Assembly: GCF_001995985.1 (NCBI RefSeq)
Contig: NZ_MUFC01000002.1
Span: 62,001 to 126,000, forward strand
From: Salinivibrio sharmensis
GTDB lineage: Bacteria; Pseudomonadota; Gammaproteobacteria; Enterobacterales; Vibrionaceae
Length of the DNA: 64,000 bases
Reading direction: 5' to 3'
The position numbers and the translations under genes were made by a program. Within the stretch, counting starts at the first letter, position 1; each line of letters opens with the position of its first letter. Positions 40,799 through 52,378 of this stretch are shown piece by piece. The notes below the pieces were generated by a model. The model searched no databases, was not told where the DNA came from, and worked only from the letters and a program-made list of their open reading frames with translations.

Positions 40799-41158
40799 AT
40801 GGCAAATATACTAGCAGCGGATGATTCGGTATCGATTCGGCAAATGGTTAGCCACACATTAAAGGAGGCAGGATATCAAGTTGAAACGGCTAACGATGGT
40901 GCAGATGCACTGCGAAAAGCAAAGTCTAAAAAATTTGACCTCATCATTTCCGACGTCAACATGCCGGTGATGGATGGTTTTGAGTTTGTTAAACAAGTGC
41001 GAGGCGTACAGCAGTACAAATTTACCCCGATATTGATGCTCACTACCGAAGCGTCCGCTGAGAAAAAGTCGGCGGGTAAAGCGGCGGGAGCGACAGGATG
41101 GATTGTTAAACCATTCAACCCAGACACCTTACTGAAAACACTCAAACGCGTGCTGTAA
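40799..41158 (+). CDS. cheY: Chemotaxis response regulator CheY
   Basis: A single receiver domain of 119 residues. The acidic pocket is Asp8/Asp9, the phosphoacceptor Asp52 (ISDVNMPVMDG), and the conserved Thr and Lys lie in LTTEAS and IVKPF. It would be phosphorylated by the neighbouring CheA. Whether it binds the flagellar switch is unknown; F7-type CheY proteins in Pseudomonas and Vibrio do not control swimming directly. Confidence 0.95.
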   Translation: MANILAADDSVSIRQMVSHTLKEAGYQVETANDGADALRKAKSKKFDLIISDVNMPVMDGFEFVKQVRGVQQYKFTPILMLTTEASAEKKSAGKAAGATGWIVKPFNPDTLLKTLKRVL

Positions 41159-41179: not shown

Positions 41180-43279
41180 ATGGCCATGGATATGGATCAG
41201 TTGCGACGCATCTTTTATGAAGAATGTCGTGAAAACCTCGAAGTGCTGGAAAGAGAGCTCTTGGCGCTTGACCCGGGGGCGACAGATCTTGAATCCATAA
41301 ATACCATTTTCCGTGCTGCGCACTCGATTAAAGGGGGGGCTGCCACCTTTAATCTTGACGACATTAGTCACTTCACACATGTGATGGAAACCTTGCTTGA
41401 CGAGGCTCGGGAAGGAAAGCGACAGCTCGACAGCCACACGATCGATGTATTACTGCGTGGTGGTGATTGTATCCTCGCGATGCTTGAAGCTTACGAAAAT
41501 GAGGTTGAGTACGACAAAAGCGAGCGAGATGCCGTCACTGCTGCGCTTAACGCAATCATGGATAGTGCTGCGTCAACAGCCTCTGAGCCAACAGAAGCAG
41601 ACACAGAAGATCTCGGACAGCAAGCGTCGGCGGCAACGGGACATGAAGAATGGTCGATTACCTTTGTGCCGCACCCAGACATGCTTTTTTCTGGCAATGA
41701 TCCTGTACGTATATTGCGTGAGCTTCATGCACTACCCGGGGGCGCAGAGGTAACGTGCGATCAGACGCACTTGCCTACCTTCGAACAATTGGACCCTGAG
41801 CAGCTTTACTTGCGTTGGCACATTCGTGTTGATGGTCATGTCCCAGAAGAAGAAATTGCCGCGATTTTTGAGTGGGTGGAAGATGAATGCGACCTCACTA
41901 TTAGCCCCATCGGCGCTGAGAATGAGAGCGATGCGGATACTGAACCTGTTGAGGTAGAGCAGCATCCCGTATCATCACAGCCGCAAGACAACGTCTCCGC
42001 GCCCGCTTCCCCTCCCGACGCTAAACCGGCAGCGAAAAAAGCCAATAAGCCACCGGCGAAAAGCGAAGCCAGTGTGTCCTCCATTCGCGTTGAAATCGAC
42101 AAAGTCGATAACTTGATTAACCTTGTAGGTGAATTAGTAATCACTCAGTCGATGCTGGCAGAGTTAAGCAGCGACTTTTCACCTGAGCGGCTTGAGCAAC
42201 TGCAATCTGGCCTTGAGCAACTGATGCTCAATACCAAAGAGTTGCAAGAAAGCGTGCTCGATATCCGCATGTTGCCGATCAGTTTTGCCTTTAACCGTTT
42301 CCCTCGTTTGATTCGAGACTTGTCCTCGCAGTTGGGAAAGCGGGTGGAGTTAGTCATAGAAGGCGAGAGCACCGAGCTAGATAAAACCGTACTCGAGCGA
42401 ATTGCTGATCCGCTGGTGCATTTGGTGCGCAACGCGGTGGATCATGGTTTAGAAACCCCAGAAATCCGCGCGGAAAAAGGCAAGCCTGAAACAGGGAAAG
42501 TGCACCTGAATGCTTACCATCAGGGCGGCTCGATAGTGATTGAAGTCAGTGACGATGGCGCTGGATTACACAAAGAAAGGATCTGGCGTAAAGCGCTGGA
42601 TAAGGGGCTGATTTCAGACGATCTCCCGCTCAGTGAACTGACGGACACGCATGTTTTTAACCTCTTGTTTGCCCCTGGTTTCTCCACAGCCAAACAAGTC
42701 TCTGATGTCTCCGGGCGTGGCGTGGGCATGGACGTGGTGCGCCGAAACATTGAACAGCTGGGCGGCAACATTGATGTGCACTCGGCGCCAGAGCAAGGCA
42801 GCACTTTCAAAATTAGCTTGCCGTTAACCCTGGCTATCTTAGATGGTCAGCTGGTGAAAGTAGAAGGCCAAGTGTATGTGGTGCCACTGATTTCTATCAT
42901 TGAATCGCTTCAGATTGATAGCCGCCAAATTAAAACCGCCTCTGGTGTTCAGCTTTACCGGTTGCGAGAAGAAAACATTCCCATTCTACGTTTAAAAGAA
43001 GAGTTTGAGCTCGGCAGCAGTGGCGACGATCTTGATAAACAGCTGCTTTGTTTGGTCGAAGCCGGGGATAAAAAGGTCGGCCTGCTACTTGATGAGCTGC
43101 TTGGGCAGCAGCAAGTGGTGATCAAAAGCTTGGAGTCCAACTATGCCCGCGTGCCTGGTATCTCAGGCGCGACCATCTTGGGGGATGGCTCTGTCTCACT
43201 CATTTTAGATATCCAAGGCTTAATCACGCAGTTTTTAGCGCGTGTCAGCGATGCCAGCGGTCATATCGCAGCAGCCTAG
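41180..43279 (+). CDS. cheA: Chemotaxis histidine kinase CheA
   Basis: A 699-residue hybrid-free CheA. The HPt domain has His48 in RAAHSIKGG. A second small domain follows (about 158-250; FVPHPDMLFSGNDPVRILREL), seen in many non-enteric CheA proteins. Then come an Ala/Pro linker, the dimerisation helices (about 290-345), the HATPase with HLVRNAVDHGLE, DDGAGL and GRGVGMDVVRRNI, and the CheW-like C-terminus. GGAGG precedes the ATG. The kinase core is complete. It is part of an F7-type array set of genes. Confidence 0.96.
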   Translation: MAMDMDQLRRIFYEECRENLEVLERELLALDPGATDLESINTIFRAAHSIKGGAATFNLDDISHFTHVMETLLDEAREGKRQLDSHTIDVLLRGGDCILAMLEAYENEVEYDKSERDAVTAALNAIMDSAASTASEPTEADTEDLGQQASAATGHEEWSITFVPHPDMLFSGNDPVRILRELHALPGGAEVTCDQTHLPTFEQLDPEQLYLRWHIRVDGHVPEEEIAAIFEWVEDECDLTISPIGAENESDADTEPVEVEQHPVSSQPQDNVSAPASPPDAKPAAKKANKPPAKSEASVSSIRVEIDKVDNLINLVGELVITQSMLAELSSDFSPERLEQLQSGLEQLMLNTKELQESVLDIRMLPISFAFNRFPRLIRDLSSQLGKRVELVIEGESTELDKTVLERIADPLVHLVRNAVDHGLETPEIRAEKGKPETGKVHLNAYHQGGSIVIEVSDDGAGLHKERIWRKALDKGLISDDLPLSELTDTHVFNLLFAPGFSTAKQVSDVSGRGVGMDVVRRNIEQLGGNIDVHSAPEQGSTFKISLPLTLAILDGQLVKVEGQVYVVPLISIIESLQIDSRQIKTASGVQLYRLREENIPILRLKEEFELGSSGDDLDKQLLCLVEAGDKKVGLLLDELLGQQQVVIKSLESNYARVPGISGATILGDGSVSLILDIQGLITQFLARVSDASGHIAAA

Positions 43280-44268: not shown

Positions 44269-46662
44269 ATGGCGTGGTTTAAAAGGGAAGTACAGCAAGA
44301 CAACCAACAGACCAAGCAAAATGTGCAGCTGTTAGCCGCACTAAATGTCGCGCCTGCTGCACTTGTTATGCTCGACAGTCAGCAGCACGTCACCTTGATT
44401 AATCGACGTGCGCTGCAACTGTTGCAATGTTATCAGGCAGCGATTCGCGAGCACGGCAATGTCGATTTCACCGCGCAAAGTGAGATGTTATTTGGTAAGC
44501 CAATGAGCAGCATATTCGCGGCGGATTTAGTGGACTACCAACAATGGCAGCAGCTTATTGATGACAAACCATCCGTCCAAACTATCGAGTTAGGTGCGGG
44601 CAAGTTGCGTGTGTCGGCCAGTAAAGTCGCTGATGGTCAAGGCTACAGTGTGGAACTTTGCGATGTGACGGCGCGCGCCCACCAAACGGAGGAGCACCAA
44701 CGCTTAAAAGGAGCCTTAGATAACACCCACAGTGCTTTTGTATTGTTAGGGCTCCATGGCGAAATCACCCATGTGAATGAGCAAGCGGTGAAACTGTGTA
44801 AACAACATGAGAAAACCTTCCGGGTGAAAAACAGTGCCTTTGTTGCCAGCCGTGACGATATCCTTGGCAAACACATTGATTATCTGTTTCCTCAACTGCA
44901 GCGCGAAACCTTTCACACCCCTGATAAGATGCCTATCAATCGGGATATTCGCTTTAAAGATGCGCGCTTTGAGTTTCATGCCACCGCCAGCTACGACCGT
45001 CACGGTAAGCATGTTGGTACCACGATTGAGTGGCGTGATGTCACTGAAAGACGTAAGAAAGAGTCAGAACATTCATTATTGGCGGCCGTGGTTGAGGGAA
45101 TGACCACCAATGTGATGCTCGCGGACAAAGACGGCATCATTCGCTACCTTAACCCTGCAGTCACCGATCTGTTTAATAGCCGTGAAGATGAAATGCGCGA
45201 GATCTTTCCAGGCTTTGCTGCCGATAAGCTGGTCGGTACCAGCATTGACCAATTCCACAAAAACCCGGCGCACCAACAGTCTGTGATTGCCAACCCAGAC
45301 CGGATGCCATTTAAAGCGGAAATTACGGTTGGAGAGCTGGAATTTGCGCTCAATTGCATTGCCCTTTATGACGATGACGATGAATACATTGGCCCTGCGC
45401 TGCAATGGGAAGACATTACCGAACAAATGGATAGCCTGCGTCAGGTAGAAGACCTTATCGAGAAAGCGGCCGATGGCAACCTTAGTGATCGAATGGATAC
45501 CAGTAAGTACCGTGGTTCGATGGCAAAACTCGGTAAGGGTATAAACCAGCTACTGGATAGTTTCGTTGATCCGCTTAACGAGTGTATTCGCGTAATGCGA
45601 GGGGTATCGAAAGGGGATCTCAAAGCGACCATGCCGGAAGACTACAAAGGCGATTTCGAAGATCTCAGCCAAGCGGTCAATGCCTCGATTAATAACGTTC
45701 GCAACATGGTTGAAAAGATCACCCATTCATCGGCACGGGTGGCGTCAGCCTCCGCAGAAATTGCTGAGGGGAATAACGATCTGAGTGAGCGTACTGAAGA
45801 GCAGGCGGCTAACTTGCAAGAAACCGCAGCAAGTATGGAGCAAATGACGGCCACGGTGAAGCAGAATGCGGAAAGTGCATCATCGGCCAATACGCTCTCC
45901 AGTAAAGCTAGCGAAAAAGCGCGTAAAGGCGGTGAAGTGGTCAAAGAGACCGTGGATGCAATGGCTGAAATTAACGATGCCAGTAAGAAAATAGCCGATA
46001 TCATTGGGGTGATCGATGAAATTGCTTTCCAAACCAACTTGCTCGCTTTGAATGCGGCGGTAGAGGCTGCGCGTGCGGGTGAACAAGGGCGTGGCTTTGC
46101 CGTTGTCGCGGGTGAGGTACGCAATTTGGCACAACGCAGTGCCGGCGCCGCGAAAGAGATCAAAGACTTGATCAAAGACAGTGTCGAGAAAGTGACTCAA
46201 GGCTCGAAGCTGGTGGATGAATCTGGCGAAATGCTGGAGGAAATCGTTGCCTCTGTCTCCGAGGTGTCTCAGCTGATTGGTAAAATCAATGCGGCGAGCC
46301 AAGAACAAGCCACAGGCATTGATGAAATCACGCGCTCAGTGGCACGTATGGACCAAATGACACAGCAAAACGCTGCATTGGTTGAAGAAGCTGCTGCATC
46401 GAGCCAGTCGATGAGAGAAGAAGGCGCGGAGTTAATTAACTTAATTGGCTTCTTCCAAGTAGATATCGATGCTGACAAGCTCGTGGATATTCAAACGCCA
46501 AGCACCAAACCCAAGGTGACCCCGCCTCACACGACTAAGACAGCGCCTAGAGCGAGCAGTGATAGTTACCGCAATGGTGAGGCCGCGAAAGCGCGCCTTA
46601 AGGCGGTGAACAGCCAAAAAGCGCCGAGCAATGAAGTCAGTGATGAGTGGGAGGAGTTTTAA
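44269..46662 (+). CDS. Soluble Aer2-like chemoreceptor with three PAS domains
   Basis: A 797-residue methyl-accepting protein with no transmembrane segment, so cytoplasmic. Three PAS domains are seen at about 20-135, 145-258 and 272-387. The third has FHKNPAHQ (His330, His335) and Trp380 in QWEDIT, the arrangement of the heme-binding PAS of Aer2-type oxygen receptors. A HAMP-like region (about 390-475) and the signalling hairpin follow ([18 protein letters not shown]). The last five residues, EWEEF, fit the CheR/CheB tether pentapeptide; Pseudomonas Aer2 ends in GWEEF. V. cholerae cluster III has a comparable Aer2. Oxygen or redox sensing is the likely role. Confidence 0.92.
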
Positions 46663-47511: not shown

Positions 47512-48162
47512 ATGCACCAAGCGTTGGAATTACATCACCATGCGCAAGAGAAAACGCTAAAACGTTTTTTCAGCCCCGAGCACGATAAGCATATGGTGAA
47601 GCTACAGCCTGGCGATGTTTACGTCAGCTCTGATGATGAGCTGATTGCCACAGGCTTAGGCTCATGTATTGCCGCGTGTATTTGGGATCCTTTGTCCCAA
47701 ATCGGAGGCATGAACCATTTTATGTTGCCACTCAAGCGTGAAGAGGCGGAATCCACCTGGACTCCCGAACAGCATTTGTCGCGTGCCGCGCGCTATGGCA
47801 ACTACGCGATGGAAATTCTGATCAACTCTTTGCTGCAACAAGGTGCGGTGAAAAACCGTCTGCGGGTCAAGCTGTTTGGTGGCGGCAATATCATGGGGCA
47901 AAACATTGCCATTGGCCGTAAGAATATCGACTTTGTCCGCCAGTACGTCATCAATGAACAACTCCCTTTAGTGTCTGAAGATCTAGGACTAGCTTTCCCG
48001 CGCCGGGTGTTATTCGAGCCTCGTACAGGAAAAGCGTGGGTAAAGAAAATCCAGTCATTGAGTCAACAAGAGCTGGTGGCGGAAGAAACGCAATACAATC
48101 AGCGCTTGCTGCAGGAATCCTATGATGATGGCGCCGACGAGCAAGATGTGGAGCTATTCTGA
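47512..48162 (+). CDS. cheD: Chemoreceptor glutamine deamidase CheD
   Basis: Deamidates receptor glutamines and in some systems binds CheC. It has 216 residues. The catalytic Cys52 (LGSCIAACIWD) and His69 (GGMNHFMLP) are present. The C-terminal 40 residues are an acidic extension that ends QDVELF, beyond the usual fold. The membrane MCP-like protein two genes on ends GDIELF, a near match. No cheC is in the operon. CheD ends by ATGA overlap with cheB. Confidence 0.94.
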   Translation: MHQALELHHHAQEKTLKRFFSPEHDKHMVKLQPGDVYVSSDDELIATGLGSCIAACIWDPLSQIGGMNHFMLPLKREEAESTWTPEQHLSRAARYGNYAMEILINSLLQQGAVKNRLRVKLFGGGNIMGQNIAIGRKNIDFVRQYVINEQLPLVSEDLGLAFPRRVLFEPRTGKAWVKKIQSLSQQELVAEETQYNQRLLQESYDDGADEQDVELF

Positions 48163-49214
48163 TGAGCCAATATCGCTACAAAGTCTTAGTCGTTGACGAC
48201 TCGCCGCTTTATCGCACCTTAATTCGAGAGTGTTTGGAAAGTGACAGTGAGTTAGAGGTGGTTGGGGTAGCTGCTGACCCCTACGAGGCGCGCGAAAAGA
48301 TTAAAAAGATTAATCCAGACGTGATTACACTCGATGTTGAAATGCCCAAAATGGATGGCATTCAGTTTCTTAAAAACCTGATGCGCTTGCGGCCGATGCC
48401 AGTGATCATGGTCTCGACCCTGACCCAGCATGGTGCAGATGTCACTTTGGCAGCGCTGGAAATCGGCGCGGTGGATTATGTGCCCAAGCCCTCAGCGAGT
48501 AGCGCGACCGCGATCACTCGCGAGCGTGATGAGCTGGTCAGCAAAGTGAAAATGGCCGCCCAGGCCAATGTTGGACAAACGAAGAGTTGGCATAAACAGC
48601 CGAATGTCAGCATCGATCGTCAGCATTACAACCGTCGGGGCTATCAAGTGATTGGGTTGGGGGCATCAACGGGCGGCACCGAGGCATTGCGTGGAGTACT
48701 TGAGCGCTTACCTCCCCATATGCCACCTATCGTTGTCACCCAACATATTAAAGCGGCATTTTGTGGCCCTTTCGCCAAGCGGTTAGACCGTGCGTGCCGT
48801 TTGCAGGTTGAGGAGGTAACCTCAGAAAGGATGCCTTTGGTACAAGGGCATGTCTATGTGGCGCCGGGAAACCAACATCTTACCGTCGTTAATCGACAAG
48901 GGCATTTGTATTGTCACCTCTCTGATAGTGACCCGGTTGAGCGGCATCGTCCCTCAGTCGATGTAATGTTCTCATCCATCGCAGAGTCGGTGGGAGGGAA
49001 ATCTATTGGTGTGATATTAACCGGGATGGGCAGAGACGGCGCAAATGGTTTGCTGCAAATGTATCAAACCGGTGCACTTACCGCCGCGCAAGACCAAGCC
49101 AGCTCTGTGGTATGGGGAATGCCAAGAGTTGCGATCGAGCTTGGCGGCGCGGCAAAGACGCTGTGTTTAACGGAAGTGGCAAATTTTTTAGTGGAGGCCG
49201 TATATGGACGCTAA
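48162..49214 (+). CDS. cheB: Receptor methylesterase/response regulator CheB
   Basis: A 350-residue protein-glutamate methylesterase. The receiver domain has Asp58 ([10 protein letters not shown]). The catalytic triad is Ser169 (GASTGG), His195 (TQHIKAAF) and Asp292 (GMGRDGANG). Its start overlaps the cheD stop and its end overlaps the next start by 11 bases, so the three genes are tightly coupled. Confidence 0.96.
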
Positions 49215-50370
49215 TCGCTACACATTGATTTGGCCACCTGCATTGACGATGGTCAGTGTGGTTGCGTTAGCGCTTTGGTCAATGTCTTGGCAGATCATGG
49301 CGCTTGCTGGGCTTGTGCTCGTCAGCATGGGCTGGCATCTATGGCAATTACGCCAGGTAGCTCAATCCGTCACTCAGCGTGGCTCAGCTGATAGCTCTGA
49401 GGAGGGCGACGAGCCCAAACAAATTTTGCGTCGTATCCACCATATACTCTCCATTGAACTCGTCCCTATCCGCGAGCAACTCTCACGCCAACGAGAGGTG
49501 ATTGATAACTCGGTAGAAAGCCTTAACAACAGCTTTTTCGCGATGCAAAGCGCCTGTCGTGATCAGGTCAATACAGCGACCAAAATGGCCAATGAGCTGC
49601 TCTATAACGATGAGAGTGAATACAGTCTCACCAAGGTGTTGCCTGCCACTGAAAAAGCCATTGATGGCTATATCGACATCATGGTGAAGGTCAGTGATAA
49701 AAGCGTGGCGTCGATTTACATCATCGAAGAGATGTCCGGCAAGCTCAATGAAGTCTTCCAGCTGTTGGATGATGTACAAACCATGTCGGAACAAACCAAC
49801 TTATTGGCGCTTAACGCAGCGATTGAAGCGGCGCGTGCGGGGGAGAATGGGCGCAGCTTTGCGGTGGTAGCGCAAGAAGTTCGCTCCTTAGCAATTAAAG
49901 CGACCGACCTGAATACCGAAATCCACAAACACATCGACTTGGCTCAAGATAGCGTCGATAAAACCAAGGCGACGGTGGGCGAAATTGCCTCACTTGATAT
50001 GACCGAGTCTATCCGTTCGAAAGACTATATTGACTCACTCCTAGAAGGGGTTAAAGAGGTCAATGATGAAGTTGGGAAAGAGATTGAACGTGTTTCCTCT
50101 TTAGGTGAGCAAGTGCAAAGTGAAGTGAACACCTGTATCAAAAATCTCCAGTTCGCCGACATTGTGTCGCAACAAGGTGGGCACATACTTGATAACTTGC
50201 ACATCTTAGAAGAGCTCAACGAGCTGATTATCAACACCATGGCGGACGATACCATCGACTGGCAGCAGCTTAACCAACAGGTTAATGAGATAGAGGAAAA
50301 GGCGGGGTCTGCGGCGCGAGCGCCAGCGAAACAAGCCTCGTTGGACGAGGGTGACATCGAATTATTTTAA
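49204..50370 (+). CDS. Small membrane MCP-like protein with CheZ-like DxxxQ motif
   Basis: 388 residues. Two adjacent transmembrane helices (about 10-27 and 30-47) with almost no periplasmic part anchor a long cytoplasmic coiled coil. An MCP tip is present but altered ([20 protein letters not shown], then NGRSF in place of QGRGF). After residue 310 the helix reads [10 protein letters not shown], with Asp319-x3-Gln323, which resembles the CheZ phosphatase active site (QDFQDLTGQ in E. coli). The C-terminus [10 protein letters not shown] resembles the CheY-binding tail of CheZ (DDLLDSLGF). It could be a receptor, a CheY-P phosphatase or both. V. cholerae cluster III has an MCP in this place. Confidence 0.85.
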
Positions 50371-50379
50371 GGATGCTTC

Positions 50380-50679
50380 ATGAATATCAAGCGCGACATA
50401 TCGAGTGATGGAAAACAAGCTGTTTTGCATGTTAAGGGAGAGTTTAACTTCGCTTTAGTTCAGGAAGTGCGTAACGCCTATGTGGATCTTAAAGGGAAGG
50501 ACGTGATTGTCGATTTACGGGAAGCGACTTATATGGACAGTGCGGGACTGGGGATATTGCTCAATATGCAAGATTATCTTGATAAGCCAAATGGTGCGAT
50601 AAAACTGGTCAATTGCTCTGATGCGATAAAACGGGTGCTATTGATTGCCAAGTTCGAAAAGAAATTCCACATTGAGTGA
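50380..50679 (+). CDS. STAS-domain anti-sigma antagonist-like protein
   Basis: A 99-residue STAS domain. The phosphorylation motif is intact: Asp53-Ser54-Ala-Gly in YMDSAGLGIL. Such proteins bind an anti-sigma or kinase partner when unphosphorylated. The next gene encodes both a PP2C phosphatase and a HATPase kinase-like domain, so Ser54 is the likely site acted on. AAGGATGC lies before the ATG. Similar pairs are HsbA/HsbR in Pseudomonas and CrsA/CrsR in Shewanella. Confidence 0.9.
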   Translation: MNIKRDISSDGKQAVLHVKGEFNFALVQEVRNAYVDLKGKDVIVDLREATYMDSAGLGILLNMQDYLDKPNGAIKLVNCSDAIKRVLLIAKFEKKFHIE

Positions 50680-50689
50680 GTAGGCGCCT

Positions 50690-52378
50690 ATGAACGTCTT
50701 GGTGGTGGATGATGAGCCGGCATTAGTACACTATATTGCCGCGGCATTAAAGAGCGAAACAGGCAATATCAGTATGGCGATGAATGGCCAAGAAGCGTTA
50801 TCGCTCCTCGAGAATATTGATCCTGGAATGTTTCCTGATCTTATTATCTCAGATGTGAATATGCCCCAGCTCAATGGCTTTGACATGGCGCAAGAGGTAA
50901 GGAATCGCTATCCGCAAAAATTGTTGCCGATTGTGTTCCTTACCGGGGTGAGTGATTCTGATATCTTTGCCAACTGCTTGAAAGCTGGGGATGATTTTGT
51001 CAGCAAACCCGTTGACATCGCCGTGCTAATCGCCAAAGTACGCACGCATTTGCGCCACGTTCGCTTATTCCGAGAAGTGAGCCATCAACGCGACCAACTC
51101 AAGCAATTCCAAGAAACCACCGTTTACGAACATGCCATGGCGAGCCAGATATTTGAACGATTGATGTCATTCAATGTTGATGGCGTGCCGGGTGTGGAGA
51201 CGTTCTCAGGCGCATTTAGCCTTTTTAATGGTGATGTGACCATGGTATTGCACCGACCATTTGGTGGCCTGTATATTATGATTGCGGATGCCACTGGGCA
51301 TGGCCTACCCGCCGCTATCAGTACTATCCCTGCGGTTAAAACCTTTATCGCCACGGCAAAACGAGGGTTGCCTGTCGGTGATATGGCCATTGAAATAAAT
51401 GAGCATATCTGTACTTTTATGCCAGTTGGCACCCTACTTGCCGGCGCGTTGGTAGAGGTGATGCCAGATGGTCTGACGGTTAACGTTTGGAGTGGCGGAC
51501 TACCCGATGCCTATTGTCTGGATAAACACGGACAAATACTCGCCTCATACCAAGGTCGGCATATGGCATTAGGCGCACAAGCAAAAGGGCAGTTTGATGC
51601 TACTATCACTCGATTAGCACTTCAGCCAGGTCAGCGCCTGTTTTTTGCGACCGATGGCGTGACAGAAGCGCGTAATAGCGCAGGTAAGCAGTTGGGCGAA
51701 GTTGGGCTTATTCGTACCTTAAGTGGCTGTCAAGGCAGTTTGATAGCACAAGCTAAACGCACGTTAACCGCCTTTGCCGGTGACAATGGTGTCACGGATG
51801 ATGTGTCCATGCTCGAGCTGACCTTCCCGCTGATAGCCCCTCCTCGTGAGCCGCTTTCCGAAAAGGGCGCGACTTATTCGGTCGTACCTTCAACAACTCA
51901 CATCGTGTTTGATACCGCTTTGCTAAAAGAAGCGGATATTGTTAGGGACTTGCGCGGCCGTGTAAAAGGGATGGTCGGGGAGAGTACTGACTTAGATTTG
52001 ATTTGTACCGTGGCGTCAGAGCTTATCACCAATGCGCTGGATTATGGCATTTTAGGCATGCAGTCGGTGAGTAAAGACGATGTGGATGGTCTACTGCATT
52101 ACTTTAGCGAGCGGCAAGCCAAGCTCAACGCGTTGAGCGGGGATTATGTCGTTAAACTTGATTTGGTTTATCAGCCCGAAGAAGGCTTATTCAGCATGCG
52201 TTTGTCGCACACGGGAGACGGGTTCGACTATCAGTGGCACTTACATGATAAAAATCATGATGCAGATAGCCTTTCCGGAAGAGGTATCACCTTAGTGCGC
52301 TCTATTTGTGAAAAGGTCACGTACAGTGATGAGGGGCGTCAAGTCGATGTGGTATTCAAATTACAGATGAATGAGTGA
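50690..52378 (+). CDS. Response regulator with PP2C phosphatase and RsbW-like kinase domains
   Basis: 562 residues. The receiver (1-120) has phosphoacceptor Asp55 (ISDVNMPQLNG). A coiled linker leads to a PP2C/SpoIIE phosphatase (about 165-380): metal aspartates in IADATGHG (Asp200), ATDGVTEA and TDDVSML (Asp370/371). The C-terminus (about 405-560) is a HATPase of the RsbW type with SELITNALDYG (Glu444, Asn448) and SGRGITLVRS. It resembles HsbR/CrsR. Phosphorylation, perhaps by the operon's CheA, would switch it between modifying and activating the STAS protein next door. Last gene of the operon; its stop lies in a repeat. Confidence 0.92.
   Translation: MNVLVVDDEPALVHYIAAALKSETGNISMAMNGQEALSLLENIDPGMFPDLIISDVNMPQLNGFDMAQEVRNRYPQKLLPIVFLTGVSDSDIFANCLKAGDDFVSKPVDIAVLIAKVRTHLRHVRLFREVSHQRDQLKQFQETTVYEHAMASQIFERLMSFNVDGVPGVETFSGAFSLFNGDVTMVLHRPFGGLYIMIADATGHGLPAAISTIPAVKTFIATAKRGLPVGDMAIEINEHICTFMPVGTLLAGALVEVMPDGLTVNVWSGGLPDAYCLDKHGQILASYQGRHMALGAQAKGQFDATITRLALQPGQRLFFATDGVTEARNSAGKQLGEVGLIRTLSGCQGSLIAQAKRTLTAFAGDNGVTDDVSMLELTFPLIAPPREPLSEKGATYSVVPSTTHIVFDTALLKEADIVRDLRGRVKGMVGESTDLDLICTVASELITNALDYGILGMQSVSKDDVDGLLHYFSERQAKLNALSGDYVVKLDLVYQPEEGLFSMRLSHTGDGFDYQWHLHDKNHDADSLSGRGITLVRSICEKVTYSDEGRQVDVVFKLQMNE

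Follow-up and report, generated by a model that had tools for sequence, protein, structure and literature searches.

The closest described relatives of the protein considered here are the McpA-like receptors of the F7 chemosensory clusters (viz. VCA1088/Mlp44 of V. cholerae, PA0180 CttP/McpA of P. aeruginosa and SO_2117 of S. oneidensis). In the stage-1 clusters of this class, whose published gene order is cheY cheA cheW cheW aer2 cheR cheD cheB mcpA STAS PP2C, the gene that follows cheB is called mcpA-like (PMC7184735). The C-terminus of McpA has been described as strikingly conserved and important, but its role is unclear and it is not a CheR tether; as cited in the same paper, the tail of P. 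aeruginosa McpA binds none of the CheR proteins of this species (PMC7184735). The McpA homologues of Shewanella, Vibrio and Pseudomonas have been reported with the CheZ-containing F6 array, and deletion of mcpA in Shewanella leaves swimming intact (PMC9855816, PMC7534058); the F7 arrays of Vibrio and Pseudomonas also stay intact after such a deletion (PMC7184735). The protein VC1394 from the F9 cluster of V. cholerae is described as sharing the topology of McpA (PMC7534058). This literature treats the McpA-like proteins as receptors, whereas the phosphatase-like module and the free-standing relatives reported below are undescribed there, and no proposal of a phosphatase role for these receptors was found in the open-access literature.

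The window, by which we mean the whole stretch of 64,000 nucleotides from Salinivibrio sharmensis that was analysed, contains a contiguous che operon with the order cheY-cheA-cheW-cheW-aer2-cheR-cheD-cheB-[mcpA-like ORF]-STAS-SpoIIE/REC, which is the published stage-1 F7 order (PMC7184735). The features of the operon and of the mcpA-like protein are listed in Table 1. The open reading frame, of 388 aa, is genuine and lies inside this operon, and its product is a member of the McpA-like group, with which it shares operon position, membrane topology, the MCP domain and a conserved C-terminus that is not of the xWxxF type (PMC7184735, PMC7534058). The loci closest to the window are 78-80% identical to it. 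The absence of cheZ and cheC, on which the earlier note had built its proposal, is confirmed, as neither is found among the genes of the operon, and cheX is absent from it as well. The only CheZ of the genome is encoded on another contig (G000:C23), at a che locus ordered cheY-cheZ-cheA, and two CheX-family proteins, both bearing an ExxN motif, are encoded elsewhere in the genome, outside the mcpA-like operon. A CheX-family protein of this genome (L364, 1249-1932, minus strand) has a CheZ-like tail, SNDLLDELGI. In the operon CheY, the residues D52, T82 and K104 are retained, as judged by position in its sequence. From the comparisons described below, we consider it likely that the mcpA-like protein is a chemoreceptor whose framework is a CheZ-like module with CheY-P phosphatase function.

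Table 1. Positions in the window of the che operon genes and of the parts of the mcpA-like protein
Feature	Position	Strand	Basis
cheY, proposed substrate	40799..41158	+	PF00072, 2.2e-28
cheA kinase	41180..43279	+	ORF
aer2-like MCP, ends WEEF (CheR-tether type pentapeptide)	44269..46662	+	ORF, Pfam, PMC7184735
cheD, tail DEQDVELF resembling the module tail	47512..48162	+	PF03975, 4.1e-28
cheB, immediately upstream, overlaps the mcpA-like start	48162..49214	+	ORF
mcpA-like gene, 388 aa, receptor with proposed phosphatase module	49204..50370	+	ORF and MCPsignal match
Two closely spaced N-terminal TM helices, residues about 9-48	49228..49347	+	Hydropathy; low-confidence AF2 helix 11-61
Module helix A, residues 70-133, SVxxLxxSFxxM, common to small free-standing proteins	49411..49602	+	Profile comparison of N halves
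MCP signalling hairpin, residues 134-272, missing from small free-standing proteins	49603..50019	+	Pfam, profile comparison, AF2
MCP hairpin tip, canonical save local N215/S218	49795..49890	+	Alignment
Module helix B, residues 273-347, bears the DxxxQ pair	50020..50244	+	C-half profile; low-confidence AF2 helix 273-347
QFADIVSQ, residues 316-323, proposed active site D319/Q323	50149..50172	+	Invariance in homologues
Acidic C-terminal tail, residues 379-388, proposed docking peptide	50338..50367	+	Conserved in nearly all members
STAS-domain anti-sigma-factor antagonist, next gene 3'	50380..50679	+	PF01740, 1.2e-11
REC-SpoIIE(PP2C)-HATPase protein, after the STAS gene	50690..52378	+	PF07228/PF00072/PF13581

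The two tight TM helices noted earlier are borne out by hydropathy, as both hydrophobic stretches fall inside residues 6-50. In the Pfam scan, the MCPsignal domain (PF00015) covers residues 162-314 (E=5.2e-25), and an AlphaFold2 model, computed from an alignment of the mcpA-like protein and three Salinivibrio sequences, consists of long helices but is poor, with a pLDDT of 52. The tip of the MCP hairpin, which had been described as altered, differs from the canonical one by a single Gly-to-Ser change in Salinivibrio and one variable position; being nearly canonical, it was rejected as a distinguishing feature. If the protein were an ordinary chemoreceptor, whose C-terminus serves only in adaptation or as an array tether and whose likeness to CheZ is coincidental, then the complete MCP signalling domain and the canonical tip that it has are what would be expected, and the tails of other MCPs are indeed known to bind CheR or CheB, as established for those of xWxxF type. 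However, the mcpA-like protein has no xWxxF motif and lacks the CheR-tether type pentapeptide of the aer2-like MCP, and a CheR-tether role of the McpA tail is ruled out by the published binding data cited above (as cited in PMC7184735). Further, the arrays are intact after deletion (PMC7184735), and the module described below recurs in che operons without any MCP domain. We therefore regard this explanation as very improbable.

In the reading of the protein as receptor and phosphatase in one chain, the proposed active site is an Asp-x3-Gln pair in the predicted helix 273-347. In CheZ, Asp143 contacts the active-site lysine of CheY and Gln147 orients the attacking water. In the 33 homologues from the same order that were aligned, D319 and Q323 of the mcpA-like protein never vary, and across 32 homologues Q316, D319, Q323 and F388 are the sole invariant positions in the last 99 residues; most columns around the motif vary freely and the linker ahead of the tail differs in length. 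When all distinct module proteins are considered, both residues are kept in 115 of 115 (84 MCP-fused, 29 small and 2 REC-fused), so that their free loss, which the earlier note had named as a result that would speak against its proposal, is not seen. A bare DxxxQ was dropped as evidence, because a loose xDxxxQ near the C-terminus occurs in 13 of 30 other MCPs of the Salinivibrio genome; the longer form LQFxDxxxQ occurs in none of these 30. In hydropathy, the region around the motif correlates best with that of CheZ at zero shift (0.59, or 0.51 excluding the motif), and D and Q sit about 85-165 degrees from the hydrophobic core, those of CheZ being similar or further out. Judged in this way, D319 and Q323 point away from the core as in CheZ and are predicted to be exposed on the outward face of the helix, so that the second result which the earlier note would have counted against its proposal, a core-facing pair, is not seen in hydropathy either.

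Among the 274 genomes of the class, 85 have a match to a profile of residues 290-388 (A1), and this profile retrieves McpA-like receptors as well as small proteins of about 150-230 aa without an MCP domain, which retain FQFxDxxxQ and the ELF tail, and none of which is covered by a Pfam or NCBIfam model. The C halves of the small proteins match McpA 290-388 (E=5.5e-15), and their N halves match McpA 73-140 (probability 87%, E=4e-6), a score as high being reached in 0 of 60 heptad-preserving shuffles. Since both halves of the small protein find their match in McpA, McpA can be read as such a protein with the MCP hairpin 134-272 in its loop; it looks as if a CheZ-like hairpin has taken up the MCP hairpin in its loop. 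In the module phylogeny the small and MCP-fused forms are interleaved, with 6-7 changes on the best tree, of which the weak branches force at most one. A scan of viral contigs for further homologues gave only ordinary MCPs, none with the module.

The sequence similarity of the module to CheZ itself is weak. The mcpA-like protein has no match to Pfam CheZ (PF04344) at E<=1. However, the same model matches an McpA-like relative (L030) in the genome search at 2.4e-5 (25.5 bits, under the cut-off of 30.7), and one A1 member scores 5.7e-5 with an NCBIfam CheZ model. In the opposite direction, genuine CheZ genes are matched by A1 in G276, G315 and G152 (E of 1e-3 to 8e-3) and by A4, the profile of the small proteins, in G398 (2e-5) and G649 (9e-5). 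Alignment with hhalign against a diverse set of CheZ sequences gave at best a score of 27.5 (E=5e-4, probability 31%), with the D/Q pairs aligned. This score was reached in 0 of 60 cases for A1 and A4 in two heptad-aware shuffle controls. Scores as high as the observed one did occur, in 2-4 cases out of 60, in two of eight control cells, viz. block shuffles with the combined and the long profile. A sequence search of the PDB with the module profiles found no CheZ structure, only repeat-protein and coiled-coil noise. The comparison of residues 290-388 with CheZ families that the earlier note had suggested thus gives weak cross-detection of the profiles with the D/Q pairs in register, and the protein itself gives no match. 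Taken together, remote homology to CheZ is likely from these profile comparisons, and if the likeness were due to convergence instead, the mechanism would be unchanged.

Both CheZ and the mcpA-like protein have a helical DxxxQ in an F-x-D-x3-Q context, a variable linker and an acidic C-terminal peptide ending in Phe, and the gene often adjoins cheY. However, the mcpA-like protein differs from CheZ in having TM helices and an inserted MCP hairpin, in its tail (DIELF versus DDLLSSLGF), and in missing the T-G-Q part of the CheZ signature F-Q-D-[LI]-T-G-Q, in place of which it has F-A-D-I-V-S-Q; the relatives L013 and L210, with FQDMTSQ, come near to this signature. Two other kinds of enzymes should be distinguished from it. 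CheC, CheX and FliY would share with the module the role proposed here, viz. removal of CheY-P in systems without CheZ, but they are of another fold and carry an ExxN motif, and the Pfam scan gave no match of the mcpA-like protein to PF04509 or PF13690. The HisKA_3 sensor kinases with DxxxQ (e.g. NarX) are generally known to carry a catalytic Asp and Gln, likewise four positions apart, on a four-helix bundle; however, theirs is a kinase DHp domain with a phosphorylatable His, and none is found in the mcpA-like protein by the Pfam scan.

The genomic surroundings of the module, compared with cheA as the reference gene and counted only for modules with enough flanking sequence, also bear upon its function. 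Che clusters contain 48 of the 53 MCP-fused modules and 11 of the 19 small ones so counted, and CheZ is beside the module in none. There is no case of a second module in the same che cluster, the MCP-fused and free forms never occurring together. Directly upstream of cheY are found 16 MCP-fused module genes, including Pseudomonas McpA (L318-L320; motif ALQFQDMSSQ, tail GEVELF), and small modules stand directly upstream of cheY-cheA in L197, L198, L200-L202 and L206. Of 75 module-bearing genomes, 8 are without CheZ; CheC is present in none of the 8 and CheX in one, and therefore 7 near-complete genomes combine presence of the module with absence of every known CheY-P phosphatase. The che genes adjoin the module in G186, G200, G249, G251, G262, G316 and G363 (L194, L323, L142, L325, L144, L322 and L140, respectively). 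In the Salinivibrio genome, which has 41 MCP-domain matches in roughly 38 genes, only two of these genes match the module profile and both are in cheZ-less che clusters, the third che locus having cheYZ. The second copy (L182) is in a cluster ordered module-cheY-cheA-mcp-cheW-cheR-cheB and probably corresponds to VC1394. In the che operons of L145 and L147, the MCP gene is separated from the small module by a ParA-type ATPase gene and another unknown gene.

The location of the gene can also be taken to indicate that a CheZ-like phosphatase is present but that its main substrate is another receiver (CheB or REC-SpoIIE), or that it links F6 and F7 through the F6 CheY. The gene stands between cheB and STAS/SpoIIE in F7 stage-1 operons (18 cases of cheB-[module]-STAS), the copies in L191, L195 and L231 are with STAS/SpoIIE away from a che cluster, and McpA homologues are reported in F6 arrays (PMC9855816, PMC7534058). 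However, STAS/SpoIIE is absent from many module-cheY operons (L171, L175, L176, L179, L181, L182, L188, L193 and L197-L206), and CheB is generally known to occur also beside ordinary CheZ systems, where no phosphatase is needed for it. We consider such a substrate, or such a link, to be unlikely. The F6 location, together with the intact swimming and arrays of the deletion strains, fits an accessory enzyme targeting the F7 CheY, without demanding it.

The tail of the mcpA-like protein, GDIELF, is conserved across homologues; it is the acidic ...ELF end which the earlier note had likened to the CheY-binding end of CheZ. However, a similar D[VI]ELF-like end is present in at least 26 of 44 CheD proteins of these loci, including the CheD of the window, with several more having one to few extra residues, and due to this a CheY-binding role of the tail is no more than putative; the tail is also found on alphaproteobacterial proteins without the D/Q pair. 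Its presence in both F7-type CheD and module proteins suggests a common docking partner. The alphaproteobacterial proteins (L216-L225 and L229; 570-603 aa) keep the end YTMxSER...DDIELF but have lost the motif Asp and Gln, and because these residues and an MCP domain are missing, they were excluded as module members and kept out of the phosphatase claim.

If the C-terminal region were a non-catalytic docking or scaffold element, binding CheY, CheD or array proteins by its ELF tail, then D and Q would serve in packing or binding and CheY-P would be lost by its own hydrolysis, through CheX or to a phosphate sink. The occurrence of the tail on CheD and on proteins lacking the D/Q pair is in keeping with this, as is the presence of CheX-family proteins in the Salinivibrio genome. 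It is less in keeping with the fact that exactly D and Q, four apart, are invariant on the outward face of an otherwise variable helix, that the pair persists where the MCP part is absent, or that 7 genomes lack CheZ, CheC and CheX; we view it as quite unlikely. Thus, while the weak sequence similarity to CheZ and the unspecific ELF tail count against a phosphatase, the free modules in cheZ-less che operons, their adjacency to cheY and the genomes without another known phosphatase favour it, and the proposed union of a receptor and a phosphatase in one chain finds good comparative support in conservation, architecture, context and the D/Q pair that hydropathy places outward.

The phosphatase reading would work in the following manner. 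The helices A (about 70-133) and B (about 273-347) may pair as an antiparallel hairpin, which would dimerise to a four-helix bundle near the membrane, and the MCP hairpin in the loop of this module would dock the protein to the CheA/CheW array. From the outer face of helix B, D319 and Q323 would do the work that Asp143 and Gln147 do in CheZ and clear the operon's CheY-P, and the ...DIELF tail, on its flexible linker, may be a docking peptide. The receptor hairpin would fix the phosphatase at the array, where signals might gate its activity. More broadly, the evidence leans towards a CheZ-related phosphatase domain that had escaped recognition and would be at work throughout the Proteobacteria in chemosensory systems without cheZ (F7, probably F9, and others). 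It would occur in small soluble, receiver-fused or MCP-spliced form, the array-docked receptor then being a CheY-P phosphatase that could be array-gated. If this is true, it would explain the removal of CheY-P in the numerous F7- and F9-type systems with cheY and no cheZ, and it would give a role to the conserved C-terminus of McpA-like receptors. A receptor and a response-regulator phosphatase would then be joined in one chain, signal-dependent activity at the array being an obvious possibility, and a function is also predicted for small che-operon proteins that have no Pfam or NCBIfam model.

In the two receiver-fused forms (L329 and L330), a receiver domain is joined to a module with LQFSDRxSQ and a tail of CheZ type, EVDDLLDSLG; each may be a response regulator carrying its own phosphatase. 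Their C-terminal ends read SEVDDLLDSLGI (L329, 5860-6666, minus strand) and QEDVDKLLDSL (L330, 1547-2335, plus strand). Outside the class, an ORF of 1491 aa (G420:C33) and similar ORFs of 1100-1500 aa match positions 84-155 of the small-module profile, some of them repeatedly.
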